Shown: piece by piece, positions 38,724 to 64,000 of the stretch
Position numbering within the stretch: the first letter of the stretch is position 1
Layout of the letters: each line of letters opens with the position of its first letter
Origin: an uncultured Clostridia bacterium
GTDB taxonomy: Bacteria; Bacillota; Clostridia; Christensenellales; Borkfalkiaceae
Assembly (NCBI GenBank): GCA_947625245.1
Contig: CANQNO010000006.1
Span: 21,876-85,875 of the forward strand
Reading direction: 5' to 3'
DNA length: 64,000 nucleotides
Notes under the pieces: model-generated
What the model was told of the DNA's origin: nothing
Databases searched by the model: none
Seen by the model: only the letters and a program-made list of their open reading frames with translations
Position numbers and translations under genes: made by a program

Positions 38724-38746
38724 TTTTTGTTCAAAAATAAGTAAAA

Positions 38747-38874: not shown

Positions 38875-38893
38875 AACGTTTAAAAGCCTGTTA

Positions 38894-38922: not shown

Positions 38923-38973
38923 AACATTATTCGGCATTTTTAAAATTTGCATATAATAATTTTAAATTACCCC

Positions 38974-39213: not shown

Positions 39214-39243
39214 TTGCTTTTTGGGTTTGACTTATTGTATAAT
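39214..39243 (+). promoter_or_regulatory. Proximal promoter of the surface operon
   Basis: TTGCTT (39214-39219) and TATAAT (39238-39243), spacer 18. This is the nearest good promoter to the start at 39323; the mRNA leader would be about 73 bases. Confidence 0.6.
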
Positions 39244-39322
39244 ACCCATATCCTGAAATAATAGGGATAGTTATGCCCTTTTGTTTTAAGATAAATATAC
39301 AAATAATATAAAGGAAGTGGCT

Positions 39323-42300
39323 ATGAAGAAATTTTTCCTGTTCGTGTTGGCAGCTGTCTGCGCCATATGCGTCGGTGCGGCGGTAGCTTGCTCGGGGAAC
39401 GACGGCGAATACTATTCGCTCGTATTCCGCCAGACCAACGGCGTGACCTATGTCTGTGACATCCCCACGACGGGCGTCGAAGTGCGCGCCGGCACGGAAG
39501 TCAGATTTACGATCACTCTGAGCGAAGAGGCGCAGGGCTATCCCGTCGTTTATAGGAACGACGAGGAAATGACCGCGGACAAAGACGGCTATTATTCTTT
39601 CACTCTTGACAAGAACACCGTCATCAAAGTTCTCGGCATAGACGCTCCGGGCGGAGAATATAACCGTATATTTTATAACAACGCTCCCGGTGCGACCGTA
39701 AAGTTCACTACCCAAAACGGCGACGAAATGCTTCAAAACGGCATGCTCGTACGAAACGGCACGCAAGTCGATTTTGAAGTTTCGCTCAGCGCGGACTATT
39801 TCGTTGAACCCAAAGACCAACCCAACGACGCGCCTTTGGTAAAAGCCAACGACACGGTTCTTGTGTCGACGGGCAGAACGGAAGCCGGCTGGACGTATTC
39901 TTTTGTTATGAACGGTCGTACGGAAATAACGATCGAACATATCAAAAAGAATATAACGGTGACATACGTCAACGGCGACACGCGCGTAAAATATTACGAT
40001 GCGGGCGGCGACCAGATAGATGCCGACACAGAGTTGCCTTTCAAAACGGGCGACGAAGTTAACTTCAAAGTCGAAATTTCCGTTTACTACAAACAGGATG
40101 AGCCTTACGAAGTACAAGCCAACAACGACATACTCACCATAGGTGACGACGGCTTGTATCACTACACGTTCAAAGACGACACACGGATTTCGGTCAACAA
40201 CCTCGTAATTGCACCGTCGTTTACCGAACGTCCCGAAGATTGCGGTTCGGGCACTGAACGCACTCCTTTCCTGCTTTCCGAGCCGATTGACCTTTACCAG
40301 ATGGCGGGCATCATAAACGGCACACAGAACGTAGGCGATGCATGGCGCCACGGCTATTACAGACTGGAAAAGGATATAGACCTTAAAGGCGAACAGCTCT
40401 TTATAATAGGCACAACGCAAAACGATTTGGCTTATTTTGCCGGTCATTTCGACGGCAACGGCCATAAGATCTCCAACTTCTACATTGTAGACAATTTTGT
40501 GGATCAGGAGACGTTCCAACCCATGGTTGCTTCCAGCGTAGGCATGTTCGGTACGGTCACTCCGAGAAGCGGCAGCGACAAGCCCGAAATAAAGAACCTC
40601 ACGCTTGAAAATTACCAAATAACCGCAAGCGCGGCAAGTCAGAATTACAGGCTTTCCGTGGGCAGTTTTGTAGGTATGGGTTACGGCGTAGACATTATAA
40701 ACTGCAAAGCGGTGGGCGGCACGATAACCGTTACCGGCGGTCAGCAGGCGGCATACGTCGGCGGCATAATAGGCCAGCAGGTGTCCGCTTATTCCGATAC
40801 GGGCGCGTTTGCCATAGAATCCAGAGTTATAGGTTGCGGCAGCAACGCTAAAATAAGAATTCCCGGCTCCAGCGCAAATTTGGTTTACGCAACGGGCGGC
40901 ATAACGGGCTTGCTCGGCGCAGGCGAACGCAGTGTTTCCGCATATGTCCTTAATTCCTACTTCACAGGTAATATTTCCGGCGGTTTACGTGCAGGCGGCG
41001 TAGTAGGTTACGCTTCCGACTTCACTTCCGTAATAAACAGCTATTCTAACGGCGTTGTAAGAGCGCAAAGCCCCTTCAGCGTGACGGGTATGAGCGAAAC
41101 GCTTTATGATGCGTACGCGGCGGGCGTTGTGGCTGAACTCGGCTATGACTCGATAGTTTCCGGATGTTTCTCCACAAGCTCTGTTTCTGCCGATACGGCA
41201 GGGCAAAACGCCACAAAAGTTGCAAAACCCGTTTATGCTATTTTGGGCGGCACGGAAGACGGAGTTAACAAACAGTACGGCTTTAACAAAGCCATAGCAT
41301 ACAACAACCTTCCGGAAAAAAATGAAGGCAAAATTCAAGTTTCCGAAGATAGCATCTCTAATATCATGGAAACTTTGGGCTGGCATGCAGACGAGTGGGA
41401 GACTGTAAACGGCTATCCCATCCCCAAAAATATTCCTTCTCGCGATATAACTATAAAATTTGTAGCAGACGGCGAGTTTGGCACGGTTAACGACCACAAG
41501 TCAACCGGCTATAAATCCCTTGCCGAATGGGGCAAGATAAACGGAAATAACAATATTCCCGAATATCTGCAAGGCGAGGGTAGCTACCGTTCTTACGGAT
41601 ATTACTTCGACGCGGAACATAAAAACAAAGTGCCTTTGGGCTATGTGTTTACGAACGTTACAACAACATTATATATAGCTTCCGCAGATTACAATGAGGT
41701 TGCGGGCAAGTATTATCTCGGAAACAACCCCCAAGTGGGAGCGTATATCGAACTCAACACCGACGGTACAATGTTCTACCGCAACGGCGCGGTAAGTCAG
41801 GAGACGACTTATTTCTACAACAAAGCAGAAAACGAAATCGTGCTTTTGAATACGGTAATAAGCGAACTTACCGAACAGGATTTGGGCAACGACGCCGGAA
41901 TTCTCAGCGAATATTTCTCGGTTTACTATAATTTCGGCGCGACGTTGGAAAATAACGCCTTGTCGATTGTCGGCGGCTATGTCAGCGAATTGACTCGCAG
42001 CACAACCGACGCCACCCAAATCAATGCCACGGGCAACACTATAACGCTGTTCCCTCAAACAAACCCTTTGAGAGGACTTAAACAAATTTCCGAAGAAATG
42101 AAATACGGCGAGTATTATTCCGAAGATAAGAACACCGTATACGGTTTCAACGGCAACGGCAACGGCTATAGAACAGTTAAAGGCGGCGACTCGCCCGTTA
42201 CAACTTATTTCACATATAATTATACAGGAAATAACATTACCATAACTTACGATCCCGAAAATACCGAGACCGCAACAATCGAAAATAACGTAATAGCCAC

Positions 42301-44449
42301 TATAAAAGATACGTCGGTTAAACCTTACGACGGCTTTACGGGCGTTTGGGAAGCGGCTTACGGCATTTCCGAAAAATACGAATTCGACGGCATGGGAAAG
42401 TGGAATCCCAACGTTGAAGATAATACCGGTGACTATACCATAGAAGGAGGTACTCTTACCGCAACAGGTAGTGCAAGTTTCACCGCAACAATCAATAAAG
42501 ACGGTTTCCTCGAAGTGAAAAAAGACGAAAAAACCGTAACTTATTACAGAGAGGGAAGCTTTAAGGGCGAGTGGTATTTCAGCAGAAAAGCCAACAATAC
42601 CAACTCCATATCCGTAAGCCTTGTGCTCAGCGGACTTACCGAAGCCGGCTACGGCACGGCTGTGGCAACCTTGTCCTCGGGCGAAGTTTACGAACTCGAT
42701 TACGAAAAGACGACTACAACCGACAATAAGCCGGGCGTCATGCTGCAGAATAAAGAAATTTTATACGGCAGTCTCGTTTATGACGACACGACGGGGCTTT
42801 TGAGCGGCGATTTCACGGGCTTTGCGGCGCGCTTTACCGCATACGACACATTGATGGGTTCATGGATAGCCGACGACGAAACTCTCTATTCGTTGAGCTT
42901 TAACGGCAACGGTTTCTATGACCTGTCCGCCGACAACAATAGCGGCTACAACGCCGTTAAACCCAAAGTTCAGGTTGTGGAAAAGGCGGCAGACGGCAAG
43001 CTTGTAACAAAGACGGCGGATTACCGCATCTACCGCACTGCAACCAACGGCTATAAAGCTAACGAAGGCTTTATTAAATACAAGAGCGGCAACGATACAA
43101 TTGAATATAAGTTGACATACGATCCTTTAGCCGATACCGTTTCGTTGCAGAAAAAGACGGGCGAAGCGTATGACAGCAATTCAATTACCGTTCAACACCG
43201 TGACGAGTGGTACGGCGTGGAACTCAAAGACCAAAACGGCAATGTTTTGGTATTCGACGGCAGGGGCAGGCTTAAAGACGGCGGTAAGCTTACTATAAAT
43301 AATAAAAACGGCACTCTCAAAGACGACGGTATTTATAAGATAACCGAACAGGGTATCAAAATTACCGATACAGACGAATATAACGATAGCCCTGACGTAG
43401 CTGTCGTTATAAAGAAAGGCGAAAAGCAAATCGGCGAAAGCGGAACCCATAACGTATATTATATCGAGGGTAAAGAGACCATCTTCTACAAGAATCTTCC
43501 TTTTGTGGGCGACTGGCTTATCGGCACGGTAAGGGGCGAGCTTACAATTTCCGAAGTCTATGCGGACGACACCGCCACCGGCTCCTACAAGATAAATGAA
43601 GGCAACGTAGATGTTCAAAATGCAAACTTCACTTATCACCAGGACGGCAATTATCTCGAGTTCACATACGGCAACAGCGGCAAGACCTATTATATTAACG
43701 CGCTCTCCGTGGGCAGCGATTACCGTTTGTCTTTCGGACCCGACAACACCTTCTCATCCGCAAACAACTACACTTGCGTAGTTGACGACGCCGAGCATAA
43801 GGACAAATATTACAGCAACACCTATTACGTATACGAAAAAGACTCCGAAGACAACTCCAAAGACAAAGATTTGGGCATGTTGGTATTCGACGGTCTCGGC
43901 AAATCCACCGGTACCGTAACCTATTACGGACTTACCGGAGAAAGCGCAATCGATTACAGCAAGGTGAACAGGAGACACACATACACGATAGCCGAATACG
44001 GCAGGGGTGAAAGGACATACGACTATCCCAGAATCTTCGACGGGTTCTATGAATACCTGCTTATCCCCATTTCGAGGGACGCGAACTTCGATGGCGACGT
44101 AATGTACTACCTGCACGACGGTGCAAGTGAAAACAGAAAGTACTTTGCGGTTGTTTATCCCGACGAACTGTACGGTCTTACGGTTAGCGACGGTAATGGT
44201 ACGAACTATACGTTCGACGGCGTAGGCGGCGTAACGGCATACAGCGTCACGGGCGATAATGTGGTATTATATAAATATACCGTAAAGAATATCAACACCG
44301 ATACCTATATCCACGACCTCATATTTACCGTAATCAATAAAGACGGCACAACGGGCGATTCGTACAATGTACAGTTGGACCAGAGCAGTGATGTGGATTC
44401 GGCAATGTGGCGTGTAATCATGGGCGACAAGATCACCGGGCAGGCATAA
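39323..44449 (+). CDS. Giant surface lipoprotein with repeated small beta domains
   Basis: 1708 residues. The signal peptide ends in a lipobox (AVAC, Cys23), so the protein is anchored outside. Residues 25-300 hold three Ig- or InlB-like units (for example FRQTNGVTYVCD and VTYVNGDTRVKYYDAGG). Residues 330-660 hold GLUG/beta-helix-type repeats (HFDGNGHKISNFY). From about 770 on there are six or seven related beta units of 80-130 residues that carry a motif like F-N/D-G-x-G (for example YGFNGNGNG, LSFNGNGFY and YTFDGVGG). The true start is the ATG at 39323 behind AAGGAAG. The gene heads the surface operon. It is likely an adhesin or substrate-binding scaffold; its ligand is unknown. Confidence 0.82.
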   Translation: MKKFFLFVLAAVCAICVGAAVACSGNDGEYYSLVFRQTNGVTYVCDIPTTGVEVRAGTEVRFTITLSEEAQGYPVVYRNDEEMTADKDGYYSFTLDKNTVIKVLGIDAPGGEYNRIFYNNAPGATVKFTTQNGDEMLQNGMLVRNGTQVDFEVSLSADYFVEPKDQPNDAPLVKANDTVLVSTGRTEAGWTYSFVMNGRTEITIEHIKKNITVTYVNGDTRVKYYDAGGDQIDADTELPFKTGDEVNFKVEISVYYKQDEPYEVQANNDILTIGDDGLYHYTFKDDTRISVNNLVIAPSFTERPEDCGSGTERTPFLLSEPIDLYQMAGIINGTQNVGDAWRHGYYRLEKDIDLKGEQLFIIGTTQNDLAYFAGHFDGNGHKISNFYIVDNFVDQETFQPMVASSVGMFGTVTPRSGSDKPEIKNLTLENYQITASAASQNYRLSVGSFVGMGYGVDIINCKAVGGTITVTGGQQAAYVGGIIGQQVSAYSDTGAFAIESRVIGCGSNAKIRIPGSSANLVYATGGITGLLGAGERSVSAYVLNSYFTGNISGGLRAGGVVGYASDFTSVINSYSNGVVRAQSPFSVTGMSETLYDAYAAGVVAELGYDSIVSGCFSTSSVSADTAGQNATKVAKPVYAILGGTEDGVNKQYGFNKAIAYNNLPEKNEGKIQVSEDSISNIMETLGWHADEWETVNGYPIPKNIPSRDITIKFVADGEFGTVNDHKSTGYKSLAEWGKINGNNNIPEYLQGEGSYRSYGYYFDAEHKNKVPLGYVFTNVTTTLYIASADYNEVAGKYYLGNNPQVGAYIELNTDGTMFYRNGAVSQETTYFYNKAENEIVLLNTVISELTEQDLGNDAGILSEYFSVYYNFGATLENNALSIVGGYVSELTRSTTDATQINATGNTITLFPQTNPLRGLKQISEEMKYGEYYSEDKNTVYGFNGNGNGYRTVKGGDSPVTTYFTYNYTGNNITITYDPENTETATIENNVIATIKDTSVKPYDGFTGVWEAAYGISEKYEFDGMGKWNPNVEDNTGDYTIEGGTLTATGSASFTATINKDGFLEVKKDEKTVTYYREGSFKGEWYFSRKANNTNSISVSLVLSGLTEAGYGTAVATLSSGEVYELDYEKTTTTDNKPGVMLQNKEILYGSLVYDDTTGLLSGDFTGFAARFTAYDTLMGSWIADDETLYSLSFNGNGFYDLSADNNSGYNAVKPKVQVVEKAADGKLVTKTADYRIYRTATNGYKANEGFIKYKSGNDTIEYKLTYDPLADTVSLQKKTGEAYDSNSITVQHRDEWYGVELKDQNGNVLVFDGRGRLKDGGKLTINNKNGTLKDDGIYKITEQGIKITDTDEYNDSPDVAVVIKKGEKQIGESGTHNVYYIEGKETIFYKNLPFVGDWLIGTVRGELTISEVYADDTATGSYKINEGNVDVQNANFTYHQDGNYLEFTYGNSGKTYYINALSVGSDYRLSFGPDNTFSSANNYTCVVDDAEHKDKYYSNTYYVYEKDSEDNSKDKDLGMLVFDGLGKSTGTVTYYGLTGESAIDYSKVNRRHTYTIAEYGRGERTYDYPRIFDGFYEYLLIPISRDANFDGDVMYYLHDGASENRKYFAVVYPDELYGLTVSDGNGTNYTFDGVGGVTAYSVTGDNVVLYKYTVKNINTDTYIHDLIFTVINKDGTTGDSYNVQLDQSSDVDSAMWRVIMGDKITGQA

Positions 44450-44471
44450 ATAAATAATAAGGAAGAAAAAA

Positions 44472-47400
44472 ATGACAAAATTCAGAAAGACATCGATTGC
44501 GGTTATGTCGGTTGCCATGGCAGCCACCGTCGCGGCAAGTCAGGTTGTTGCGTATGCAAACTCCGGCGCAATGCGCGGCACGTCGTTGCAGGCTACCGAA
44601 ACCGTCCGTAACATTGGGTTCACCGATCTCACGGGCTCTTTGGACCTCTCAGATATTGCGTTGAGCCAACTTTCCGATAAAACGGTGGATAACGGCGCCG
44701 ATATCGAGGAAAGAAACATTACGGGCGCAGGCAATAAAACCCAAACGGTAATTGTCAGCTTCAATACCCCGTCGCTCGTCGAAGCAAAGGGCGACGACAT
44801 GGAAGTTGCCGAATATCTTTCCACCAACGCGGGCAAGAGCGCTCTTAAAAATATCGAGGACGCGCAAAACAGCTTTTTATCTAAGCTTAAAGCTTCGGGT
44901 ACGAGCTATAAGCTTGTGGACAGATATAACACCGTAATGAGCGGCGTTGCAATCGAAATCAACACTGCGCAGTTGTCCAAAATCAAAAACTTCGCCAACG
45001 TTGCGCTTACGGGCATTTCCAAAACCTATGCGGCTCCCAAAGTGGAAGCGGCGCAAACAAACCCCAGCAACGTTTACGGAACGGGTATTTACAACTCGCT
45101 TGAAACAATGAAAACGTACGGCGTTGACGGAAGCGGAATAAGCGTTGCCGTGCTCGATACAGGTCTCGATTACACCCACGAAGCCTTTTCGCATATCCCT
45201 GAGGTACAGGGGTTAAGCAAAGATACGGTTGAAAGTGTGTTCGAAAGCCTCAAAGCGCACGGGCGCAATCCGTCGGCAACGATAGACGACCTGTACAAGA
45301 GCGGTAAAGTTCCCTTCACGTTTGACTATGCCGACGACGACGCGGACGTTTATCCTTCCTATTCGCAGCACGGTGTGCACGTTTCGGGCATTATAGCCGG
45401 CAAAGCCGATACCTATACCGACAAAGACGGCAATACGATAGATACAACTAAACCCGCAGACGAATTCACACAATATAATTACGACGGTTACGATTTCCTC
45501 GGCGCGGCTCCCGAAGCGCAGATCGTCGTTTGCAAAGTGTTCACCGACGATCTGAACAGCGAAGACCTCGGCGGCGCTACTTCCGAAGATATAATCGCGG
45601 CTCTTGACGACTGCGTAACTCTCGGCGTAGACATAATCAACATGAGTCTCGGCACGGCGTGCGGCTTCTCCAGCGACGTCGGCGACGACGACGAGGGCAA
45701 GGAATTAAGCAGGGTTTATAACAGCATTAAAAATGCGGGCATAAGTCTTATCACCGCGGCGGGCAACGAGTACAGCTCGGGCTCGGGCAGTGAATACGGT
45801 ACCAACCTTGCTTCCAACCCCGATTCGGGTACTGTAGGTTCGCCTTCGACTTTCACGGGCGCAATGTCCGTCGCTTCCATAAACGGACAGGAAGCGCCTT
45901 ACATGATCGCGAACGAGGACGAAGATAACCAGTACGCCAACGCTCCCATATACTATAACGATTCCAACGACTCCAACGCCGTTCCTTTCGATTTCGCGGA
46001 AGAAATTTTGGGAGATAAAAAGAGCGCCACTCTTAAATATTACGTAATTCCCGGTTACGGCGCGGCGGGCGACTATTCCGACACGGTTAAAACCGCATTG
46101 AGGAACAAGGCAGAGGGCGAAAAGATACTCGTTCTCGTAAGGCGCGGTACGTCCGACTTCAAAACAAAGGTTGAAATCGCTCACTCCATGGGCGCGGACG
46201 GCATCATAGTTTATAACAACGTCCCGGGCACCATAAGGATGTCTCTTGCCGATATCGAAGAGACCGATCGTATCCCCGCCATTTCCATAAATATGGACGC
46301 GGGCGCGATCCTCACCACCAACCCCGACAACCCGTCGAGGCTCAGAACGTCCGGTACAATAAGAATAGATAAAAACCTTAAAGCGGGTCCTTTCATGAAC
46401 GACTATTCGTCCTGGGGCGCAACTCCCGATTTAAGGCTTAAACCCGATATAACCTCGCACGGCGGCGAAATTACTTCTACCGTTTCCGGCGGTTACGAAG
46501 AAATGAGCGGTACCTCAATGGCTACCCCCAACTTCGCGGGCTTTATGGCTCTTGCAAGAAGCTATTTCAGAACACATTCTCAGGAATTGTTCGGAAAAGA
46601 TCTTACAGATAAAAACTCGACAAATAATACAAAGCTTACCACTTGGCTCAACCAGCTTGCCATGAGTTCGGCAACGCTTGTGTTCGACGAGGAAAAGCTT
46701 CCTTACTCCCCCAGAAAGCAGGGCGCGGGGCTTGCGACCCTCAGCAATATGTTCTCCACAAAGGCTTACCTCTACACCACTCAAGAAGATGCGGAAGCAG
46801 GGGATTTCGACATAGAGGACGGCAGACCCAAAGTGGAATTGGGCGAGGACGAAGCAAAGAAAGGCGAATATACCTTCACTTTCAGAGCGAAGAACTTTGA
46901 TAAAACAAAATCGCTTACCTTCGAGCTCATTTCAAGGTTTATGACCGAAACCATTTCGGCGGACGGGATTGCGGTTGCCGAAGCGGCGTATATGCTGGAC
47001 GACGTTCCCGCACAGTTCACCGTTAGCGGCGCGACTTTCGCGGACAATAAAGTTACCATTGCGGCGGGAGAGGAAGCTACAATTACCGTTAAGCTTACCC
47101 TTTCCTCAGCCGAAAAGGAATATCTGAACAGAAACTTCAAAAACGGCATGTATGTAGAGGGCTTTATATCCCTTAAATCGAAAGATGCGGAACAGTGCAA
47201 CCTCAACCTTCCTTTCATGGGCTTCTACGGCGATTGGGAATCGGCTCCCATGCTCGACTACAACGCATACGAAATGTCCGAAATCGAGCAGGATACATCT
47301 GTAATCGAAGAGGAAAAGACGCACGAGAGCGTATTTGCAACCCAGCTCTATTCAACATATTATAACGGCAGGTACGCCGTTCCCATGGGCGGTTTTGCAT

Positions 47401-50400
47401 ACGTTCAGGATGAAAACGCAGAGCAGGTTTATGTAGAAGAAGAGCACTGCGCGATCTCCCGTTTCAACATATTCACCAGCCCGACCGACAACACCAACTA
47501 CCTTACGAGTACGGGCGTCAGAGCGCTGTATGCCGGACTTTTAAGGAACGCCGAACTTGTAACGTACGACCTGTACGACGCATATACGGGCGAACTTATA
47601 AAAGCGGGCAGAAAGTACCGCGTCGGCAAGGCATATGCTGGCGGCGGCAGTGCAAGACCCGCGCTTGTGGATTTGAGAGAAGAAGATATCGACGCAGACA
47701 ACCTTCCTCTCTACAATAACGGCAAGTACAGAATAGAATTCAATTTCTATATGAAAACCGAGGACGAAGATACAAACGTTCCTTACAAAAATACTTTCGG
47801 TTCCGATTTCTATGTAGACTTTGACGCGCCTATTTTGCAGAGCGCCCGCGTGAGATATTACGACTACGAAGAAAACAACAAGACCAAACAGCGCGTATAT
47901 CTCGACCTCGACGTATTCGATAACCATTATCCCCAGTCCGTGCTTTTGTGCTATTCCGACGAAGAATATTCTACGGACAGCACCGAAGTTGCCGAAATAA
48001 ATCTTGCCACGGAATATGTAACTCCCATATACAATCCCGGCAGGAACACCACAACCACGGTTTCCATAGAAATCACGGATATTTACGAAAAGTATCAGAA
48101 CAATCTGTACGTTCAGATAGACGACTATGCGCTCAACCATACCGTTCAGGTGCTGAACTTCAAGGACGACAGTCTTTTAAATACCAATTCCGATTTCAGC
48201 ATTGTAGCAAACAACAGGGTAAAGAGAACGGGCAGCGCTCCAAACTATCAATACAACCTTACGCTTGAGAAAAACGAAGCTTACAAAGTCCAGCTCAACT
48301 GCGGCGACGCAAATCCTTCCAACTATATCTGGAAGTCGGACGACGATAGTATAGTAAAAGTTAAAAACGGCGAATTGTTCGGACTTGCCGTAGGTAAAAC
48401 CACAATAGAAGTTACGGGCGGTACGGCGTTGAACGGCGACACCGAAAAAACGATTTACCTCGACGTTGAGGTAGTGGACAGTTCAAGACGGCTTTCCACA
48501 CCCAGACTGTCGTTCGGAGTTGTTAAGGGCACAAACCAGAACCTCGAAATCGCTCAGGGCGTTGTAAATGTCAACGCAGGTCAAACGTTCACGATGGATA
48601 TCATCACCGACCCGTGGTACTATCCCCTTGAAAATCTAACCTTGCTGTGGACTTCGTCCGACGAAAACATAGCGAAGATAGTGACGGAGACCGATGGCGT
48701 TCACATCGTAACTCAAAATAAGCACGGTTCAACCATTATAAGGGCTTCGGTAGCTGCTTCCGACGGCGTAACGCCTACAAGTACGGCGGCTTCGGTCACA
48801 ATGCGCGTTGCGGAACCTTTCGATATTGCCAACATGACTCTCAACAAGTATTACGGCAGCGAAACGGAAGTCTTTATCCCCAAAGATAAAAACGTAATGA
48901 CCATAGGTGAAGAGGCGTTCGAGGACAACAAGACAATGGAAATAGTGCATATACCCAGAACGGTAACGCAGATTTCCGAACGCGCTTTCCTCAATGCAAC
49001 GGCATTGCGAGAGGTTATATTTGACGTTGAAAAGCCAAACGACCTTTCGGCTATAAACCTTATCCTTGCCGACGCCTTCCAGGGCTGCACAAGTCTTACT
49101 ACACTGGATCTTACCAATGTCAAGGTATTGACCGTCGGCGACAGAGCCTTTAAAGATTGTACAAATCTTACAACGATTATAGGCATGGAGAAGATAGGTA
49201 TAGCGCAGACGTCCGCGTTTGAAAATACCGGTCTTACAAATGTCGATATCACGGGCTTGCATACAGCAGGTTACAGAGTATTTGCTAATTGTAACGCGAT
49301 TACTTCCGTTAAGACAGACCATTACTCGGCAATAAGCCCTGCAATGTTCTACGGCTGTACCCAATTGGATAGTGTTACCATAAACAATGAACGCGTCGGC
49401 GGCGGCGCTCGCGGCTTTGGCGCGTTTGAGAATTGTACCAATCTTACATCCGTAACTTTCGGCGGAGAAGAAATCGCAGATAAGTGGAGCGATACCAAAT
49501 TCAAAATCGACGCTTACGCGTTTGCGGGCTGTGAAAAGCTTGGCACCGTAACTTTCGGAGGTTACGAAGTTTCGTATATAGGCGATTACGCGTTTGCGGG
49601 CACCAACATTACCGACTTCACAATGCCTAAGGGCAATCCCAAACTCGGCGAATCCATTTTCGACAGCCAAGTCGGCGGCGGTAAAGTTAATATCACGTGG
49701 CCTAACAATAACACTTATGAAAACGTAGGCGGCGCTATTTATGTCGGCGATACGCTTATAAAAGCTCCCGATACTATAACAAGCGAGTTTAGCCTCAGAG
49801 AAGGCACTAAGGCAATAGGACCTTACGCATTTACCGACAGTCAATTTGATGGCGTGACGACGATTGATTTAAAGAATATAGAAACTCTCGGTGAGGGCGC
49901 GTTTGCGGGCGCGGGTATAACCGAAATTACAATACCCGAAAAATTGAAAGTTATCCCCGCTTCGGCGTTCAGACAGAGCAAACTCACCTCTATCCAAATT
50001 CCCGCCACAGTGACGGAAATAGGCGACGCGGCGTTCTCGACCTGCTCTGCTCTTACAGGTATAACGTTTGCTGATCAATCCCAACTCAAGAGAATCGGCG
50101 ACAATGCGTTCCAGATGTGCCCGATAGACGAAATAACTTTACCCGACGGAGTGGAAACCATGGGCAACTATGTATTCCTTGGTTGTCCCAAACTTGCAAC
50201 GGTAGTTCTTCCCTCGGTTAAATCGCTCGGCGCATACACCTTCTCGGAATGTCCCGAACTTAAATCCGTGACGTTCGGCGACCATGCAACGGATTCGGGT
50301 GCATACACCTGCTTCCCCGGCGCGGATATCAACCAAATTACGGGCGAAGTTAATGAAATTTACTCTAACAAACTCGATACGGTTAACCTCGGCGGTCTTA

Positions 50401-52019: not shown

Positions 52020-52033
52020 AGGAAATAATAAAA

Positions 52034-53548: not shown

Positions 53549-53549
53549 A

Positions 53550-56228: not shown

Positions 56229-56255
56229 TAAGTAAAATTTTAACGGAAATCAAGT

Positions 56256-57260
56256 ATGGTTAAATATATAGTCAAAAGATTGCTTCTTTCCATATTCATT
56301 CTGCTGGGCGTCTCGATGATAATATATTTCATAATAAGGCTTATGCCTATGGACTATATCGATCAGACGTTGGGCGGACTGATGTCCGGCGGTTCTGCCA
56401 TGAACCAGGAAAAAATCGACGCAATCAAAGCATTGTACGGTCTTGACGACAACAGCTTCGGCGGAATACTTAAAGGTTATTTCGGCTGGCTGGGCAGGTT
56501 CCTGAAAGGCGATATGGGCACGTCCTATATGTACAACGAAAAGGTTGAAGACGTTATAATAGACAACATGGGCATATCTTTCGGTATATCCTTTGTATCG
56601 CTCATATTCGAACTTATAATCGCCATACCTCTCGGCATAAAGTGCGCGGTAAACCAATATGGCAAGCTCGACTACACTGCAACCGTCGTATGTATGACCC
56701 TTATGGCGTTCCCCACGTTCTTCCTCGGCAATCTGTTCATAATGCTCTTTGCGGACAAATTGCAGTGGTTCGACCCGTCGCTGGGCTTAGTTTCAACATC
56801 TTTGCCTGTCGGCACGTCGGGCTGGGTACGGTTTTGGGATATGATGTGGCACCTTGTGCTGCCTATGGTAGTGTTGGTGCTTCTTAACGTCGGCTCGTAC
56901 ATGCGCTACCAGCGTACCAACACTCTTGAAGTGTTGAACGCCGATTACATAAGGACGGCGCGCGCCAAGGGGCTTTCCGAAAACAAAGTCATATACAAGC
57001 ATGTATTCCGTAACACAATGATACCTCTTGTTACGGTGCTTGCTTCGGCTTTGCCCATGCTCTTCGGCGGCGCAATGATTACCGAAACGGTGTTCAATAT
57101 ACCCGGTATCGGTAAAAAGACGTACGACGCGCTTATGAAAGGCGATATCCCCCTTGCAATGGGTTACAATATGTTCATAGCCATACTTACGGTTTTGGGT
57201 ATATTGCTGTCCGATATAATGTATGCCGTGGTTGACCCTCGCGTCAAGCTCGGAAAGTGA
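56256..57260 (+). CDS. oppB: Oligopeptide ABC transporter permease, OppB type
   Basis: 334 residues with about six membrane segments and the binding-protein-dependent transporter loop YIRTARAKGLSENKVIYKHV. The N-terminal segment MVKYIVKRLLLSIFILLGVS is typical of OppB/DppB. It forms a heterodimer channel with the next gene. It follows the binding protein by 27 bases. Confidence 0.95.
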   Translation: MVKYIVKRLLLSIFILLGVSMIIYFIIRLMPMDYIDQTLGGLMSGGSAMNQEKIDAIKALYGLDDNSFGGILKGYFGWLGRFLKGDMGTSYMYNEKVEDVIIDNMGISFGISFVSLIFELIIAIPLGIKCAVNQYGKLDYTATVVCMTLMAFPTFFLGNLFIMLFADKLQWFDPSLGLVSTSLPVGTSGWVRFWDMMWHLVLPMVVLVLLNVGSYMRYQRTNTLEVLNADYIRTARAKGLSENKVIYKHVFRNTMIPLVTVLASALPMLFGGAMITETVFNIPGIGKKTYDALMKGDIPLAMGYNMFIAILTVLGILLSDIMYAVVDPRVKLGK

Positions 57261-57267
57261 GGATAAT

Positions 57268-58368
57268 ATGGAAGAAGAAATAAAGATGGAAAATCCCGAA
57301 GAATCCGAAATTCCCGTAGCTCCCGAAAACGAGGAGAATAACGAAATATCTCAGGACAAACTCCACGGCGAAAGTTTGGGGGACAGAGTAAAGGCGCTGT
57401 CCCCGGCGGCAACCGTCGCAAAGCGGTTTTTCCGCTCCAAACTCTCTATGATAGGACTTGTCACCATAATCGTGCTGTTCGTATTTTCGTTCCTCGGACC
57501 TCTGTGTTCGCCCTGGGGCGAAAAAGAAGCGGACAACAACAAGTCCGACGCAATGATTTCCGGCAGTTACATAACTTATTCCGTTGACGATACCGAACTC
57601 AGCGGCGAAGAGATAACGTACGCCTGGAACAGAACGCTTAACGACTATGCCGGCATATCGGGCGACCACTGGATGGGCACCGACAGGCAGGGTTATGACG
57701 TATTTTCCCGCTTGATGTACGGCGGCAGGGTGTCGCTTACTATAGGCTTTGTGGTTATATTGCTCGAAACCCTTTTGGGCGTAGTTTTGGGCGGTATATC
57801 GGGCTATTTCGGCGGCTGGGTCGACAACGTTATAATGCGTATAGTCGATTTGCTGAGCTGTATTCCCACAATTCCGCTGATGCTTATTTTGGGCTTTGCC
57901 TTAAACGGCATAGGCGACCTTGAAACGAGTATAATGAAGTTATACATAATAATGGGTGTGCTATGTCTTATAGGTTGGGTCGGCACCGCGCGGCTTGTCC
58001 GAGGTCAGATATTGTCCTTGCGCGAGCAGGAGTTTATGCTTGCCGCAAAATGTTCGGGTCTTTCCACCCGTTCCAAAATATTCAAGCACTTGCTGCCTAA
58101 CGTCATACCGCAACTCATAGTTTCAATGACCCTCGGATTGGGCAACGTAATACTTATGGAAGCCACTTTGGGATTCCTCGGTATAGGCGCGCCTCTTTCA
58201 ACGGCAACCTGGGGCAACATGATAAATTTGGTGCAGGATATGCGAATAAGGTCGTACTATCCCAACATGTGGATAGGCGCGGGCGTTTGCATTACTCTTG
58301 CAATACTTGCATTTAACTTTGTCGGCGACGGTTTGCGTGACGCATTCGATCCCAAAATGAAGAGGTAA
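57268..58368 (+). CDS. oppC: Oligopeptide ABC transporter permease, OppC type
   Basis: 366 residues. After an acidic cytoplasmic N-terminal extension of about 55 residues (MEEEIKMENPEESEIPVA and onward), which typical OppC lacks, come the membrane segments and the EAA loop region EFMLAAKCSGLSTRSKIFKH. The linker after the first segment includes GTDRQGYDVFSRLMYGGRVS, diagnostic of OppC/DppC. I chose the ATG at 57268 (GAGGA upstream); an in-frame ATG at 57223 lies inside oppB. It is 7 bases after oppB. Confidence 0.94.
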   Translation: MEEEIKMENPEESEIPVAPENEENNEISQDKLHGESLGDRVKALSPAATVAKRFFRSKLSMIGLVTIIVLFVFSFLGPLCSPWGEKEADNNKSDAMISGSYITYSVDDTELSGEEITYAWNRTLNDYAGISGDHWMGTDRQGYDVFSRLMYGGRVSLTIGFVVILLETLLGVVLGGISGYFGGWVDNVIMRIVDLLSCIPTIPLMLILGFALNGIGDLETSIMKLYIIMGVLCLIGWVGTARLVRGQILSLREQEFMLAAKCSGLSTRSKIFKHLLPNVIPQLIVSMTLGLGNVILMEATLGFLGIGAPLSTATWGNMINLVQDMRIRSYYPNMWIGAGVCITLAILAFNFVGDGLRDAFDPKMKR

Positions 58369-58371
58369 CCC

Positions 58372-59703
58372 ATGGCAGTCGATAAACAAGAAAGAAATAA
58401 ACATTATATATCCCGTAAGGAATCGCGCGAAATTGCCAAAAACAATTCAAAGATGATAAGAAACTTTGAAAAGCAAAAGAAGCGCAAGATCCGTCCCGAA
58501 GAGTATGTGACCGAAATGAAGGACCCCAACAATATAGTGGAGTTCGACGACCTGCACACATTTTTCTTCTCGGACGCGGGTACCGTAAAGGCGGTAAACG
58601 GCGTTACTTTCTCTGTTCCCGCCGGTTCGACCGTCGGCGTCGTGGGCGAGAGCGGTTGCGGCAAATCCGTAACTTCGCTTTCCCTTATGCAACTTGTGCA
58701 AGCGCCCAGCGGTCAGATAGTTTCGGGTTCCATACGTTTCCGTGCGGACATGTTCAAATTGGACGAACACGGGCGCAAGATTCCCGTATACGAGACCGAA
58801 ACGGACGAGGACGGCAACGATAAGCTGGATGAAAACGGCAACAAGATTTACAAGTTGGACGCCCGCGGCAAAAAAATCATTAAAAAGAACGAGCTCGGCG
58901 GCAATATGTACGAAATGGAGCGCGAGGTAGTCGATATCGCAAAAATGCCCACACAGGCAATGCGTATGATCCGCGGCAGGGAAATATCGATGATATTTCA
59001 GGAGCCCATGACTTCCTTGAACCCCGTATTCACGATAGGCAACCAGCTCGACGAAGTCGGCAAACTTCACATAGAGGGAATTTCCAAAGAGAAAGTAAAA
59101 GAGCGTTCTATCGAAATGCTCAACCTCGTCGGAATTGCCGATCCCGAGGGCGTTTACAAAAAATACCCCCACGAACTTTCCGGCGGTATGCGCCAAAGGG
59201 TAATGATAGCGATAGCCCTTTTGTGCAACCCCAAACTCATAATCGCCGACGAGCCTACAACCGCGCTCGACGTTACAATTCAGGCGCAGATTCTCGACCT
59301 TTTAAGGGAAATCAAAGGCAAAATCAACGGCAGTATAATGCTGATCACGCACGACCTCGGCGTCGTAGCCGAAATGGCGGATTACGTTGTGGTTATGTAT
59401 GCGGGCAAAGTTATAGAAATGGGTACGGCTGAGGACATATTCGACCGTCCTTTGCACCCCTACACGATCGGCTTGCAGAAGAGCAAGCCTACGGTCGACC
59501 AGGTCACGGACGAACTGTATTGCATACCCGGCTTTGTTCCCAACCCCATAAACATGCCCAATTATTGCTATTTCCGCGACAGATGCGACAAATGCATGGA
59601 AAAATGCTCCGGCGAATATCCCGGCTATGTTCAGGTAACGCCCACGCACAAGGTAGCTTGCTATCTGTATAAAGATATGGCGAAGGAGGAGACAAATGGC
59701 TGA
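58372..59703 (+). CDS. oppD: Oligopeptide ABC transporter ATPase, OppD type, with insert
   Basis: 443 residues against about 330 in most OppD. The extra sequence is a basic N-terminal extension (about 52 residues) and an insert of about 68 residues (129-196) between Walker A ([14 protein letters not shown]) and the Q-loop, made of a degenerate repeat ([22 protein letters not shown] and [10 protein letters not shown]). The signature LSGGMRQRV, Walker [13 protein letters not shown] and the Cys-rich C-terminal motif CDKCMEKC with CY are intact. It drives peptide uptake with the partner encoded next, whose start overlaps this gene by 8 bases. Confidence 0.94.
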
Positions 59704-61012
59704 TAAAAAGACCAAAAAGGCTGACGTAACCGGCGAAGAGACCATAAAGACAGAACAGCCCGCGGAAGTTTTGGAAACAGCCGCCGCGGTTGAAGAACCC
59801 GCGGCAGAAGTCGTTGCGGCTCAGGAAGAAACCGCCGCAACTTCCGAATATGTTTCCGACGCCTTTCTCGAAGTAAGAAATCTTTGCAAATACTTTGTTG
59901 TGGGCACAAACTTTTTCGGCAGACCCAACAAATGGCTCAAAGCCGTGGACAACGTCTCGTTTAAACTGCAAAAGGGCAAAACGTTGGGTATAGTCGGCGA
60001 AAGCGGTTGCGGCAAAACCACTATGGGCAGAACCATTTTGCGCCTGCACGACGTTACGAGCGGCGAAGTGTGGTTCAAAGGCGAAAAAATTTCCGATCTT
60101 TCCAACCGTGAATTCGACAAACGCCGCCCGCACATGCAGATGATATTTCAGGACCCTTACGCAAGTCTTTCTCCCAGACTTACCGTGGGCGAAATAATCG
60201 GCGAAGCGGCGCGCCAGCACGGTATGGTAGACAAAGCCGGTTTTTACGACTATGTCATAGAAGTAATGAAGATGTGCGGCTTGCAGCCCCACTATTTCGA
60301 GCGTTACCCGCATGAGTTTTCGGGCGGACAGCGCCAGCGTATATGTATTGCGCGCGCTCTCGCTTTAAAACCCGAACTCGTGATTTGCGACGAGCCTGTT
60401 TCGGCGCTTGACGTGTCCATACAGGCGCAGATCATAAATATGCTTATAGAGCTTCGTAAAACTCTCGGGCTTACATACGTATTCATCTCGCACGACCTGT
60501 CCGTCGTAAAGCACATTTCGGACGAAGTCGGCGTTATGTACCTCGGCACAATGGTTGAATACGGCTCCAAAGAGAGCATTTTCGAAAACACTCTTCACCC
60601 TTACACAAAGGCGTTGTTCTCGGCAGTGCCCGTTCCCAACGTACACGTAAAGATGAACAGGGTTATTCTTAAAGGCGATATACCTTCGCCCGTCAACCCG
60701 CCGTCGGGTTGCAAATTCCATACGAGATGCGATAACTGTATGGAAATATGCTCTAAAGTCGCACCCGAATACAAGGAAGTGGAGCAAGGGCATTTTTGCG
60801 CTTGCCACCTGTATAATTCGGAAGAGGACACCGCAAGGCTTTGGGCCGCATACGAAGAAGAGCAAAGGCGCATAGCCGAAGAATATGCGGCAAAGCATGC
60901 AAAACATAAACCCGAAAAGGTTGCCGAAGGAGAGGACGACGGGGCGGAAGCGCCTGCGGAAGTTCAAGGCATACCCGAAGGTGAACATTCGGGGCAAGCT
61001 GCTTCCGAATAA
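59696..61012 (+). CDS. oppF: Oligopeptide ABC transporter ATPase, OppF type, with charged tails
   Basis: 438 residues. The core has Walker A GESGCGKTTMGRT, signature FSGGQRQRI, Walker B LVICDEPVSALD and the C-terminal GCKFHTRCDNCMEIC motif of OppF. It differs from ordinary OppF (about 310-330) by an Ala/Glu-rich N-terminal extension of about 50 residues and a C-terminal coiled-coil-like Glu/Ala-rich tail of about 65 residues. Overlaps oppD by 8 bases. The tails may dock the transporter to other cytoplasmic parts; this is inference. Confidence 0.94.
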   Translation: MADKKTKKADVTGEETIKTEQPAEVLETAAAVEEPAAEVVAAQEETAATSEYVSDAFLEVRNLCKYFVVGTNFFGRPNKWLKAVDNVSFKLQKGKTLGIVGESGCGKTTMGRTILRLHDVTSGEVWFKGEKISDLSNREFDKRRPHMQMIFQDPYASLSPRLTVGEIIGEAARQHGMVDKAGFYDYVIEVMKMCGLQPHYFERYPHEFSGGQRQRICIARALALKPELVICDEPVSALDVSIQAQIINMLIELRKTLGLTYVFISHDLSVVKHISDEVGVMYLGTMVEYGSKESIFENTLHPYTKALFSAVPVPNVHVKMNRVILKGDIPSPVNPPSGCKFHTRCDNCMEICSKVAPEYKEVEQGHFCACHLYNSEEDTARLWAAYEEEQRRIAEEYAAKHAKHKPEKVAEGEDDGAEAPAEVQGIPEGEHSGQAASE

Positions 61013-61041
61013 ACTAAATAAGGAGTAGTTACATTTAGTAA

Positions 61042-61308
61042 ATGCCCAAAAAACGCAAAAAACCCGATAATCTCGATACCACCACAACTTTTGCGAATAT
61101 GAACGTAGAGGGATTCAAGTGGTACGATCCGACTCTCGAAAAGAGGTTGGAAGATAGGAAAAAAGGTATTGTTCCGCCCAAAATAAGCCGCCGCGAATAC
61201 TGGCAAATGGTTCGCGGCGCCTTTGTGGCGGCGTTGCCGGTAATCCTGATGATAACTTTGATATTCGGGATATTGGTGGGCGTTGCCTATCTGTGGCTAT
61301 CGCATTGA
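61042..61308 (+). CDS. Small single-pass membrane protein
   Basis: 88 residues, not recognised. A basic start, then YDPTLEKRLEDRKKGI, and one membrane segment (about 60-86) at the C-terminus, so the main part is cytoplasmic. AGGAG lies 16 bases ahead of the ATG, a long distance; the ATG itself lies in a short inverted repeat (CATTTA-G-TAAATG). A stop codon sits directly upstream in frame, so no longer reading exists. It follows oppF by 29 bases and precedes another membrane gene by 2. Confidence 0.65.
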   Translation: MPKKRKKPDNLDTTTTFANMNVEGFKWYDPTLEKRLEDRKKGIVPPKISRREYWQMVRGAFVAALPVILMITLIFGILVGVAYLWLSH

Positions 61309-61310
61309 TT

Positions 61311-62132
61311 ATGGCAAAATTCGAAGAAAAAACCTGTAAGCTTGTGCGGCTGGTATTCGGTATAGTTATGTCAGTATATACCGTTGTCCTTGCCGCGCTT
61401 ATTTTATGTCGGATTCTCGACATATATTTTTCGGGCGTTTCTGCAGGCAATATAAAGCCCTATACCTATGAAGCGGTAATGGGGCGCGTTCATGCAGAGC
61501 TTGCCGCACCGTTCTGGATATGGATAGTCCTTATTTTTGCAGGGCTTATTTTATGGGAAGTATTCAAAATTCCCGAAAAGCGCCGCGGCATAAGCGACGC
61601 GCGCTACATACTCCAACGCCTGCAAAAGCGTATCCCCGCGGAAGTGGGCGGCGACCTTACCGATTCATTGAACGCAGTAAGGCGCGAACAAAAAATTTTG
61701 AAAATACTGCACATCTGTCTTTATGCGCTTACTGGGCTTTTCCTCGTATACGTAATAGCATATATGTGCATACCCTCTAACTTTACCTCGGTAGAGGCGG
61801 TAACCGATGACATAAAAAGGCTTTGCCTGTTTATACTTCCGGTAGCCGCCGTAATATACGCCGCATGGCTTGCGTACGTGATTTATTACGGATATTCGGC
61901 AAAACGCCTGCTCCCCGAGGTCAAAAAGTTGACCAAAGGCATAAAGGAACCTCAGACGGCAACGGGGAAGTTTGCCGCTTTCGTTCAAAGCAGAAACTTT
62001 ATACTTGCGGTCAGAATAGCCTTGGCATGTTTTGCCGTAATTTTTATAATAATAGGTTGTTGCAACGGCAGTGTGCTGGAAGTATTAAACAAGGCTATAA
62101 GAATTTGTACGGAGTGTATCGGTCTTGGCTAA
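61311..62132 (+). CDS. Polytopic membrane protein, unknown
   Basis: 273 residues, with about five hydrophobic segments (near 10-35, 63-85, 133-155, 172-195 and 232-250), and a basic linker EVFKIPEKRRGISDARYILQ in the cytoplasm. No recognised family motif. Several Cys occur in the membrane parts and last 30 residues (CCNGSVLEVLNKAIRICTEC). The start at 61311 comes 2 bases after the preceding stop. Its 3' end overlaps the polyferredoxin start by 8 bases, so the two are translationally coupled and may form a membrane complex. Confidence 0.68.
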   Translation: MAKFEEKTCKLVRLVFGIVMSVYTVVLAALILCRILDIYFSGVSAGNIKPYTYEAVMGRVHAELAAPFWIWIVLIFAGLILWEVFKIPEKRRGISDARYILQRLQKRIPAEVGGDLTDSLNAVRREQKILKILHICLYALTGLFLVYVIAYMCIPSNFTSVEAVTDDIKRLCLFILPVAAVIYAAWLAYVIYYGYSAKRLLPEVKKLTKGIKEPQTATGKFAAFVQSRNFILAVRIALACFAVIFIIIGCCNGSVLEVLNKAIRICTECIGLG

Positions 62133-64000
62133 GATAAAACAATTTTTTATGAGCGTCGGGCTATGGATAAAAAATCACTTCCCCACACGGCGCAGAATAA
62201 TTCAGGTTTACGCGGCGTTGCTCACAAACGCCAGCTTAAAGGGCTACAGCACGGGATTGATATACGACGGTCCCACAAAGGTGCTGTGTTCGCCGGGGCT
62301 TAACTGCTATTCCTGCCCGGGCGCGGTTGCCGCATGTCCTTTGGGCTCGCTGCAAAATTCGCTCGGCTCAGCCAAAACGACGACGCCTTATTACATAATA
62401 GGCATACTCGCGCTTTACGGCTTATTGCTTGCAAGGACGATTTGCGGCTTTTTGTGTCCTTTCGGCTTCTTTCAGGATATGCTGTATAAAATCAAGACCC
62501 CGAAAGTTAAAAAGAGCGTCGGCACCCGCGTTTTGTCCTACCTTAAATACTTATTTTTAATAGTGCTTGTAATAGCCGTACCGCTCATATATCACAGCGT
62601 TCCCGGCTTCTGCAAATACATATGCCCCGCAGGTCTTATAGGCGGTGCGGGCGGGCTTTTGCCCAATTCGCGTAACGCCGACTATTTCGGTATGCTGGGT
62701 TTCCTTTTCAGCTGGAAATTCGCCCTTTTGATAGTCTGCGTAGCGGTATGCGTATTTATTTACAGGGCGTTTTGCCGCTTTATTTGCCCGCTCGGCGCTA
62801 TTTACGGATTTTTCAATAAAATCTCCCTCATGGGCGTAAAGCTCGATAAAAGCCAGTGTATCGAGTGCGGCGCTTGCATAGCTAAGTGCAAAATGGATAT
62901 CAAGCACGTCGGCGACCATGAATGTATAAATTGCGGCGAATGTATCCCCGTTTGCCCCACAAAGGCGATAAGCTGGAAAGGCAGCAAAATCTTTTTAAAA
63001 CCCGCGTCGGTAACCGTATCTGCGGCAAACGCCGGCGGCGAAGAGTTAAAGCCTTTAAACGTATATATCGAAAACGGAACGGTTTCAAATGCCAATGCTT
63101 CTGTTTCGGACAAATCCGAAGCTGTCGCGCCTGTGGAATATGCGGCTCCCACGGAGCAGGCAGTAGAGCGCGCGGCGGAAGAGGAAAGCGTAAAAGAGGC
63201 GCAGGAAGTTTTGGGTGTGGAAGTTGAACACCCCGAAGAACAGCCCGCACAAAAGCAGGGTAAAAAGCCCAACGCGCTGGCGTTAAAGTTCAAAAACCGC
63301 AATTTCGTTTTGGAGTTTGTTGCGTGGGTTCTTGCAACGGCATTGCTTGTGGGCGCGCTGGTTTACTACAACACCCGTCCAACTGTTGAAATGCAAAGGA
63401 TAAAAAGCTTTACTTGCGAAACCTATAATACGGCATATGCGGAAAAAGAATATACGCTTTCGTATAGCAGCAAGCCGACGGTAATAATCTTCTGGAACAG
63501 CCGCAACGCAATCGGCATAGATTATGTAAACGATTTTGTGGCGAATATGTATCCCGAAGTGAAAGACGACGCAAACTTTGTAATCGCGCACATCTCCAAC
63601 GCCGATACCCAAGAGACCGTGCAGGGTATAATTGACGAAAAGGGCTGGAACACCTCGGAAATTCCTTTCATACAGGATACGGCTGAACTCAACCTCTACA
63701 ATGGATGTTGCGGCGATAATTCGCCCACAATGACGGTGTTCCTGAACTTCGTAAACGCGATATACGCCCGTCACAGCGGTCCCGTAACGCTTGATACGAT
63801 AAAGCAAGAGATAGACTACAAAAACGTTTGGGAAAACACCAATTTTCAAGTGGGCGACAAGATCCCCGAACAAATGACGATACCAACCTATCACAGCGCG
63901 TACACAGCGGACAGCTACAACATTGCCGAAGCAAAAGGTAAAGTGCTTGTATTTAACTTCTGGTACGTAAGCTGCGGCGGGTGCGTTGCGGAATTGCCGT
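62125..64000 (+). CDS. NapH-like polyferredoxin fused to thioredoxin-like domains (partial)
   Basis: The gene runs off the window after 625 codons. Residues 1-230 hold several membrane segments with CxxxCP-type motifs (CGFLCPFGFF, CKYICPAGL and CRFICPLGAIYG), as in NapH/CcoG-like proteins. Two 4Fe-4S motifs follow (CIECGACIAKC and CINCGECIPVCP). After an acidic linker (about 330-395) and a membrane segment comes a thioredoxin-like fold near residue 450 that lacks CxxC (FWNSRNAIG), and a second one near 605 that has CGGC (FWYVSCGGCVAELP) at the window edge. The TTG start at 62125 follows GGAG; an ATG at 62149 lacks an RBS. It probably passes electrons across the membrane to a thiol. Confidence 0.83.
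   Translation, partial: MAKIKQFFMSVGLWIKNHFPTRRRIIQVYAALLTNASLKGYSTGLIYDGPTKVLCSPGLNCYSCPGAVAACPLGSLQNSLGSAKTTTPYYIIGILALYGLLLARTICGFLCPFGFFQDMLYKIKTPKVKKSVGTRVLSYLKYLFLIVLVIAVPLIYHSVPGFCKYICPAGLIGGAGGLLPNSRNADYFGMLGFLFSWKFALLIVCVAVCVFIYRAFCRFICPLGAIYGFFNKISLMGVKLDKSQCIECGACIAKCKMDIKHVGDHECINCGECIPVCPTKAISWKGSKIFLKPASVTVSAANAGGEELKPLNVYIENGTVSNANASVSDKSEAVAPVEYAAPTEQAVERAAEEESVKEAQEVLGVEVEHPEEQPAQKQGKKPNALALKFKNRNFVLEFVAWVLATALLVGALVYYNTRPTVEMQRIKSFTCETYNTAYAEKEYTLSYSSKPTVIIFWNSRNAIGIDYVNDFVANMYPEVKDDANFVIAHISNADTQETVQGIIDEKGWNTSEIPFIQDTAELNLYNGCCGDNSPTMTVFLNFVNAIYARHSGPVTLDTIKQEIDYKNVWENTNFQVGDKIPEQMTIPTYHSAYTADSYNIAEAKGKVLVFNFWYVSCGGCVAELP

Follow-up and report, generated by a model that had tools for sequence, protein, structure and literature searches.

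A predicted surface protease and Opp-type importer operon ending in a CXXC/polyferredoxin redox pair in an uncultured Clostridia bacterium

Results

An eleven-gene run joins an envelope protease, an Opp-type importer and a redox pair. The window analysed here is a 64,000-nucleotide stretch from an uncultured Clostridia bacterium of the Borkfalkiaceae (GenBank assembly GCA_947625245.1, contig CANQNO010000006.1, forward strand positions 21,876 to 85,875). It forms the end of contig C6 of a source genome of 1.42 Mb in 26 contigs that is 94.4% complete. From position 39323 to the window end, open reading frames (ORFs) and the start codons chosen for them define eleven genes on the + strand, with intergenic gaps of, in order, 22, 14, 1, 27, 7, 3, -8, 29, 2 and -8 bases, values that depend on our choice of start codons. 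The eleven co-stranded genes with gaps of at most 29 bases reported in the initial annotation are thereby borne out, as is the claimed absence of terminator hairpins between them: no + strand terminator-like site lies in any junction, and every such site from 39323 on is intragenic. The sequence thus gives good support to a long operon. We propose, with a probability of roughly 0.55, that it serves to scavenge protein at the cell surface and that an electron carrier for thiol reduction was joined onto it.

The first three genes are predicted to encode surface proteins. Gene 1 (bind1; 39323..44449, +) encodes a 1708-amino acid lipoprotein-like surface protein for which Pfam gave just a sub-threshold DUF5640 match. 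A gene of this type precedes the protease gene in nine of ten relatives compared; L155, the tenth, lacks a protease call at that place, but the position from a separate protease search puts the protease about 30 bases past the bind1-type gene. Gene 2 (44472..52019, +) encodes a 2515-amino acid subtilase in which Pfam identifies S8, PA and fn3_5 domains and BspA-type LRR_5 leucine-rich repeats (LRRs), followed by a C-terminal hydrophobic anchor. With its S8 domain carrying the Asp/His/Ser motifs (D229, H299 and S682), its PA insert and its fn3_5 domain, it has the features of a cell envelope proteinase of the PrtP/C5a peptidase type, and its sequence matches in the PDB are C5a peptidase and cell envelope proteinase chains (E values of 1e-57 to 4e-46), covering at best residues 204-937. 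The match to the NCBIfam SGO_0316 family is below cut-off (203.8 versus 1400 bits). No LPXTG wall anchor was found in the last 75 residues, which instead hold a hydrophobic anchor with a basic tail, and the protein contains 25 cysteines. The "two giant wall proteins" initially described at this position are a lipoprotein-like protein (39323) and an anchored protease. Gene 3 (52034..53548, +) encodes a 504-amino acid lipoprotein-like, mostly beta protein and is also located between the protease and OppA genes in relatives. Its AlphaFold2 model has a pLDDT (predicted local distance difference test) of 81.6; the assignment of a known fold was dropped as Foldseek matches, at template modelling scores (TM-scores) of about 0.1, were uninformative. 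Neither the gene 1 nor the gene 3 product matched a family above its curated cut-off.

Genes 4 to 8 encode the complete domain set of an Opp/Dpp-type importer. Gene 4 (53550..56228, +) specifies an 892-amino acid OppA-type solute-binding lipoprotein with a signal sequence and an SBP_bac_5 domain. Genes 5 (56256..57260, +) and 6 (57268..58368, +) encode OppB- and OppC-type permeases, each identified by the Pfam BPD_transp_1 domain with NCBIfam models below their cut-offs, and genes 7 (58372..59703, +) and 8 (59696..61012, +) encode OppD- and OppF-type ATPases with oligo_HPY domains, identified by Pfam, the listed NCBIfam models again staying below their cut-offs. The predicted peptide specificity of the importer rests on gene context. 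Gene 9 (61042..61308, +), whose 88-amino acid product has one hydrophobic stretch near its C-terminus and no family match, follows OppF in ten codirectional relatives as well.

The pairing of protease and importer extends across the order. We compared 61 genomes of the genus and 151 of the order, presence being called by E-value cut-offs in fragmented genomes. Within the genus the protease is found in 47 genomes and OppA in 46, all of which carry both; the two lie on one contig and strand in 43 of these 46, with the protease upstream in 40, and on different contigs in the remaining 3. Within the order the protease is found in 32 of 151 genomes, OppA in 29 and both in 28, and reading of the match lists places the two on one contig and strand in 27 of the 28, spread over 8 families, with the protease upstream in 23. 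These counts support conservation of a predicted protease-importer core beyond the genus. The initial annotation had suggested a complete binding-cutting-importing unit, of which the cutting and importing parts are upheld by this linkage, and a binding role for genes 1 and 3, which match no family, remains conjectural. One genus genome holds a second protease and OppA pair (G014:C22:11744-30624).

Genes 10 and 11 form a predicted redox pair. Gene 10 (61311..62132, +) encodes a 273-amino acid membrane protein with five hydrophobic segments and a C-terminal CTECIGLG motif (CXXC tail). It scores 35.3 bits against NCBIfam NF040920 (the CD1871A CXXC family; cut-off 32 bits), the match being to a 38-position domain at residues 243-279 of the ORF counted from 61293. 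Lysine plus arginine values of 10.4 and 7.8 for loops 2 and 4, as opposed to 2.5, 0.8 and 1.9 for loops 1 and 3 and the tail, favour an outside location of the CXXC tail. The structure model (pLDDT 70.7) shows five long helices and a C-terminal helix. Gene 11 (62125..64000, +), which is cut by the contig end, encodes a NapH-like polyferredoxin followed by a cysteine-less thioredoxin-like domain and a TlpA/ResA-like domain with an intact CXXC motif (WYVSCGGC), as assigned by Pfam and by examination of a full-length relative (L035) alongside the window copy. An N-terminal cysteine motif is invariant across 12 alignment rows. The first thioredoxin-like domain has FWNSRNAIG or a similar sequence in place of CXXC in the window gene (63490-63516) and in all four two-domain relatives in alignment A1 (L035, L037, L038 and L039), and the second domain is intact. 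Among the closest solved domains to the thioredoxin domain are ResA and pneumococcal thioredoxin-family surface lipoproteins. Basic residues before the last hydrophobic stretch favour a topology with the TlpA-like domain outside and the ferredoxin domain inside.

The redox gene probably closes the operon on a second contig. Position 64000 is the end of contig C6 and truncates gene 11. Contig C17 overlaps C6 by 22 bases, opening with the letters on which C6 ends, and continues gene 11 in the same frame for 111 codons to a stop. Contig C2 carries, on its - strand (L054:8804-10084), a gene for a 426-amino acid lipoprotein-like protein, a paralogue of the thioredoxin-like domain pair of gene 11. 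It shares 94.6% identity with the start of C17 across 369 bases, a repeat that is the probable cause of the assembly break at gene 11. The C2 paralogue adjoins IleRS-like and FeoB-like genes (names assigned by eye). Because C2 has its own continuation and relatives show the same kinds of genes convergent at this place, we take C17 as the continuation of C6, and the redox gene therefore closes the unit. About 20 bases past the gene 11 stop, C17 has a GC-rich hairpin that is flagged as terminator-like on the - strand only, its T-run on the + strand being shorter than the scan rule demands. Beyond the hairpin, a gene for a 160-amino acid lipoprotein-like protein and then one for a 1004-amino acid thioredoxin lipoprotein lie on the opposite strand.

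The CXXC protein and polyferredoxin constitute a two-gene module that occurs in several arrangements around the protease and importer. In the best 80 of at least 585 polyferredoxin relatives, ranked by likeness to the genus query and with many loci cut by contig ends, every one of the 80 loci has a CXXC-tailed ORF ahead of the polyferredoxin, at most 161 bases from the match start in 76 of them and at most 418 bases in all. Membership of the redox gene in the unit thus stands in changed form, as half of a module and not as a fixed component. Around the redox gene, protease, OppA-F and redox pair are co-stranded in the order seen in the window in 10 of 20 genus loci. In the 36 genus genomes that have OppA as well as the redox gene, the latter comes after Opp and on its strand in 15 cases, is convergent in 4 and divergent in 1. 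A protease gene is divergent beside the pair in 12 of the 80 loci, including L073, by its length the genus contig of G056 and the single divergent genus case, and in G178. The pair is located upstream of protease and Opp genes in G184 and G210 and of Opp genes in an Anaeroplasma. In G184 and G210, redox pair, thioredoxin lipoproteins, protease, lipoprotein and Opp genes all fall within 30 kb, and the Anaeroplasma locus (L111) has the order thioredoxin lipoprotein, CXXC protein, polyferredoxin, two genes, OppABCDF. Flanks of 8 kb or longer are available on each side of 31 redox loci, and in 12 of these a protease or OppA gene is in reach; four of the 12 are genus genomes.

Several of these loci show further features. 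Two Mycoplasmatota metagenome-assembled genomes, L111 (Anaeroplasma) and L079 (Acholeplasmatales), carry the redox pair, which may reflect transfer or a binning error. In G184 and G210, both of family f24, the thioredoxin is encoded as a separate gene after the pair. In this family, a 456-amino acid flavodoxin-like ORF (by eye) stands directly before the pair (L143:1508-2878 and L145:1193-2563) and is a possible inner electron donor. In L040 and L045 several large genes in a row, of which one encodes VWA domains, lie upstream of the pair.

Within the genus, the redox gene co-occurs with surface thioredoxins, protease and importer. We counted the redox gene in 37 of the 45 genus genomes with any match, having dropped 8 with short ferredoxin-like matches only (E value of 3e-5 or weaker). 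Genomes with and without the gene differ in thioredoxin lipoproteins (37/37 versus 2/24; p = 1.2e-14), protease (37/37 versus 10/24; p = 8.7e-8), OppA (36/37 versus 10/24) and cysteine desulfidase (31/37 versus 2/24), where p values are from Fisher tests that ignore kinship. The membrane part of CcdA/DsbD, searched for as PF02683 only and not as other CcdA-like families, was not found in 59 of 61 genus genomes including the source genome. As PF02683 is present in 2 of 61 genus genomes and the control search was positive in 10 of 14, the genus mostly lacks the membrane carrier that usually serves surface thioredoxins.

In the clade of the window, the redox pair seems to have been fused to the Opp operon. 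In 19 of the 31 genus genomes that have both redox gene and desulfidase, the desulfidase gene is antisense and some 1 kb ahead of the redox gene; the antisense gene of relative L040 matches Pfam SDH_alpha. Of the 15 genomes with the redox gene after Opp, 7 have an antisense cysteine desulfidase gene in between and 8, including the window, have none. This fused state was checked gene by gene in seven of the eight, G008 being the exception. The desulfidase of the source genome is encoded elsewhere, on contig C26, and matches PDB 9he0 over nearly its full length (E value of 4.8e-34, residues 11-423 of 425). In a redox tree of 112 rows, from which identical, short or stop-holding rows of 117 candidates were left out, the window groups with G055, G041, G006, G017 and G014 (support 100/100), within a wider set of loci in which the desulfidase gene intervenes or is adjacent. 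Of 21 unfused loci, 15 have a promoter-like site of at least 10 of 12 in the 150 bases preceding the CXXC gene, and of 7 fused loci none has one (p = 0.0014), compared with 3.3% of shuffles that approximately keep dinucleotides; the unfused set comprises 14 of the 20 genus loci and 7 additional loci, and the start codons of L051 and L151 are probably wrong. A further 78 loci, three of which are fused genus loci, include 29 with a site of 10 of 12 or better. Clade nesting and the absent promoter of its own therefore suggest that the redox pair in the window's clade, having lost its desulfidase neighbour, now depends on the Opp transcript unless an internal site in gene 10 works. That candidate site (TTGGCA-17-TATAAT, 11 of 12) is at 62022..62050 (+). 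Among the other fused loci, the 250 bases before gene 11 hold sites of 7 to 9 of 12 in five and none in L034. The last two genes thus seem to have been joined later onto the protease-importer run from a widespread, little-described redox module, giving a derived operon fusion.

Transcription of the run would start from a site just upstream of gene 1. The promoter scan places a probable operon promoter (TTGCTT-18-TATAAT, 9 of 12) at 39214..39243 (+) and a second promoter-like site of 10 of 12 farther up (38974-39002). Upstream of the same gene in relatives, a 10-of-12 site is found at about 80-200 bases in eight of ten and a 9-of-12 site in one; the tenth (L161) has its gene start cut off. Counts of terminator-like sites, taken on both strands, are near those of shuffles (15 versus 18.4, standard deviation (sd) 4.0; 21 versus 16.2, sd 3.8). 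Riboswitch or T-box control was considered and dropped, as an Rfam scan gave no above-threshold match except tRNA and nothing credible at 38300-39400. A tRNA-Ser(GCT) gene (38784-38874, -) with a 17-pair terminator-like stem (38785-38747) stands just ahead of the operon, and a shared repeat stretch occurs both upstream of the operon (38515-38538) and just past the last gene (L060 420-443).

Discussion

The gene content suggests how extracellular protein could be bound, reduced, cut and imported. In the proposed scheme, bind1, the LRR part of the protease and the gene 3 lipoprotein would hold protein at the surface. Cytosolic ferredoxin would reduce the 2x[4Fe-4S] domain of gene 11, cysteine motifs at both membrane faces would move the electrons outward, and the outward CXXC tail of gene 10 would convert single electrons into a dithiol, as ferredoxin:thioredoxin reductase does through its active-site disulfide. 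Disulfides of bound protein, or cystine, would then receive electrons from the gene 11 TlpA-like domain and from the large thioredoxin lipoproteins, the S8 protease would cut the loosened chains and OppA-F would take up the resulting peptides. Cysteine would be used, or degraded by the cysteine desulfidase encoded on C26, an enzyme of cysteine degradation (PMC7373191). More tentatively, genes 10 and 11 might together act as a ferredoxin-driven, CcdA-independent outward thiol reductase, an Fe-S wire ending in a CXXC tail and a membrane form of ferredoxin:thioredoxin reductase, which in one large gut Clostridia lineage and an Anaeroplasma would be tied to a protease-importer unit, the two together reducing, cutting and importing protein.

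A number of observations weigh against this scheme. Redox gene and OppA are on different contigs in 16 of the 36 genus genomes with both, a class that partly reflects contig breaks, and of the 13 order genomes that hold all three of redox gene, protease and OppA, 8 have the redox gene on a contig separate from the protease. Ten genus genomes carry protease and OppA without the redox gene. At the level of the order the tie is weak: the protease/Opp unit is present in 13 of 44 genomes with the redox gene and 15 of 107 without (p = 0.037), leaving 31 of 44 redox-bearing genomes without it. A 38-row clade of the redox tree has no protease or OppA neighbours in the stretches seen, except for weak OppB and OppC matches in L092. 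The desulfidase gene lies outside the window's operon and is absent at an E value of 1e-40 from 6 of 37 redox-bearing genus genomes, and 6 of the 21 unfused loci have no 10-of-12 promoter. No listed NCBIfam model for oligopeptide specificity reached its cut-off for the window subunits (for the ATPases, among the best 25 models), and Opp-type importers carry nickel, glutathione and other solutes as well. The favoured topology of gene 11 needs a membrane crossing near residues 25-45, where the hydropathy scan flags none. Promoter-like sites exceed shuffles on both strands (30 versus 16.5, sd 3.6; 23 versus 16.2, sd 4.6), and intragenic + strand sites of 10 or 11 of 12 at 51655-51682, 56032-56061 and the gene 10 position given above indicate that internal promoters may be present within the run. 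The notion of one complete unit of old standing was rejected, since the redox pair is separable from the protease and Opp genes.

The alternative that survives best is that the redox pair serves general surface thiol repair in the manner of pneumococcal ETrx, acting on the cell's own cysteine-bearing surface proteins or on methionine sulfoxide, and is found near protease and Opp genes just as one of several surface functions shared by the same gut lineages. The 31 order genomes and the 38-row clade without the unit speak for such a role, the protease with its 25 cysteines could itself be a client, and the pneumococcal lipoproteins that, with ResA, are near solved relatives of the thioredoxin domain take part in methionine sulfoxide repair (PMC3914529). 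We nevertheless regard this as unlikely: the genes are neighbours repeatedly, in more than one orientation and also in an Anaeroplasma, a protease or OppA is in reach in 12 of 31 long loci (four of the 12 being genus genomes, and the parent set of 80 having been picked by likeness to the genus query), and the genus protease accompanies the redox gene in 37 of 37 genomes but is found in only 10 of 24 without it. The same recurrent adjacency and genus co-occurrence make it less likely that the redox gene is unrelated to the protease and Opp genes.

It is also conceivable that the protease targets specific host proteins instead of bulk protein, with Opp taking up fragments or signals. Streptococcal C5a peptidase and cell envelope proteinases as nearest solved relatives and the sub-threshold SGO_0316 match are in keeping with such a target, which we consider improbable as linkage with a peptide-type importer in 8 families points to nutrition and lactic acid bacterial cell-wall proteinases start bulk casein breakdown (PMC2827410). 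Least probable of all is that the pair is an electron sink passing surplus ferredoxin electrons to extracellular disulfides or cystine with peptide uptake secondary, an idea that agrees with the ferredoxin-type domain in the window gene and its relative and with the desulfidase gene beside the pair, as seen in 19 of the 31 genus genomes that have both and in L150, a locus of family f32, but leaves the recurrent protease/Opp neighbourhood and the fusion into that transcript unexplained.

If the protein-scavenging reading is true, anaerobic gut bacteria have a general means of pushing low-potential electrons to surface thioredoxins without CcdA and use it to live on protein held by disulfide bonds, and the breakdown of cysteine may then yield sulfide. 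The pair of CXXC protein and polyferredoxin is common, as judged from the at least 585 polyferredoxin relatives and the pairing of all of the best 80, and the comparison illustrates one way in which an operon may have acquired two genes at its end.

The proposed system can be set beside several known ones. Like the PrtP, Opp and peptidase system of lactic acid bacteria, it has an S8 envelope protease with PA and fn3_5 domains and an Opp-type importer. It differs in that a single run of genes encodes both, the protease has LRR repeats, adhesin-like lipoproteins are present and no LPXTG motif was seen, whereas in strain SK11 prtP/prtM and oppABCDF2 are on different plasmids (PMC2827410). The pneumococcal CcdA-Etrx-MsrAB2 system similarly has a membrane carrier that feeds ResA/TlpA-like surface thioredoxins (PMC3914529). 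Here, in a genus where PF02683 was not found in 59 of 61 genomes, the proposed carrier is an Fe-S polyferredoxin with a CXXC partner and the donor would be ferredoxin, not NADPH-thioredoxin. NapH/NosR-type polyferredoxins share the CX3CP motifs and the 2x[4Fe-4S] domain; gene 11 is unlike NapH/MauN in its invariant N-terminal cysteine motif and fused TlpA-like domain, and relative L035, on which the TIGR02163 model was run in place of the window's own copy, scores 70 bits against a cut-off of 213.05. The likeness to ferredoxin:thioredoxin reductase, a soluble enzyme in which ferredoxin electrons are likewise made into dithiols, is one of idea and not of compared sequence. Keratin breakdown by Fervidobacterium combines disulfide cleavage, proteolysis and ABC import (PMC13157175), but proceeds by sulfitolysis with no ferredoxin-fed membrane carrier, and the passages of that paper describe no joining operon. 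GILT couples disulfide opening and proteolysis in antigen processing (PMC3885806) and differs from a ferredoxin-fed carrier in being a lysosomal enzyme. The open-licence PMC literature yielded no description of CD1871A or of a CXXC/polyferredoxin pair feeding extracytoplasmic thioredoxins and none of a gut operon with subtilase-LRR, OppA and thioredoxin, the thiol-reductase and keratin literature giving analogies only; the main text of a paper on clostridial Dsb proteins (PMC12453122), in the parts available, does not mention ferredoxin, CcdA, DsbD or TlpA. The protease-Opp design has published counterparts, and the redox module is the more novel part of the operon.

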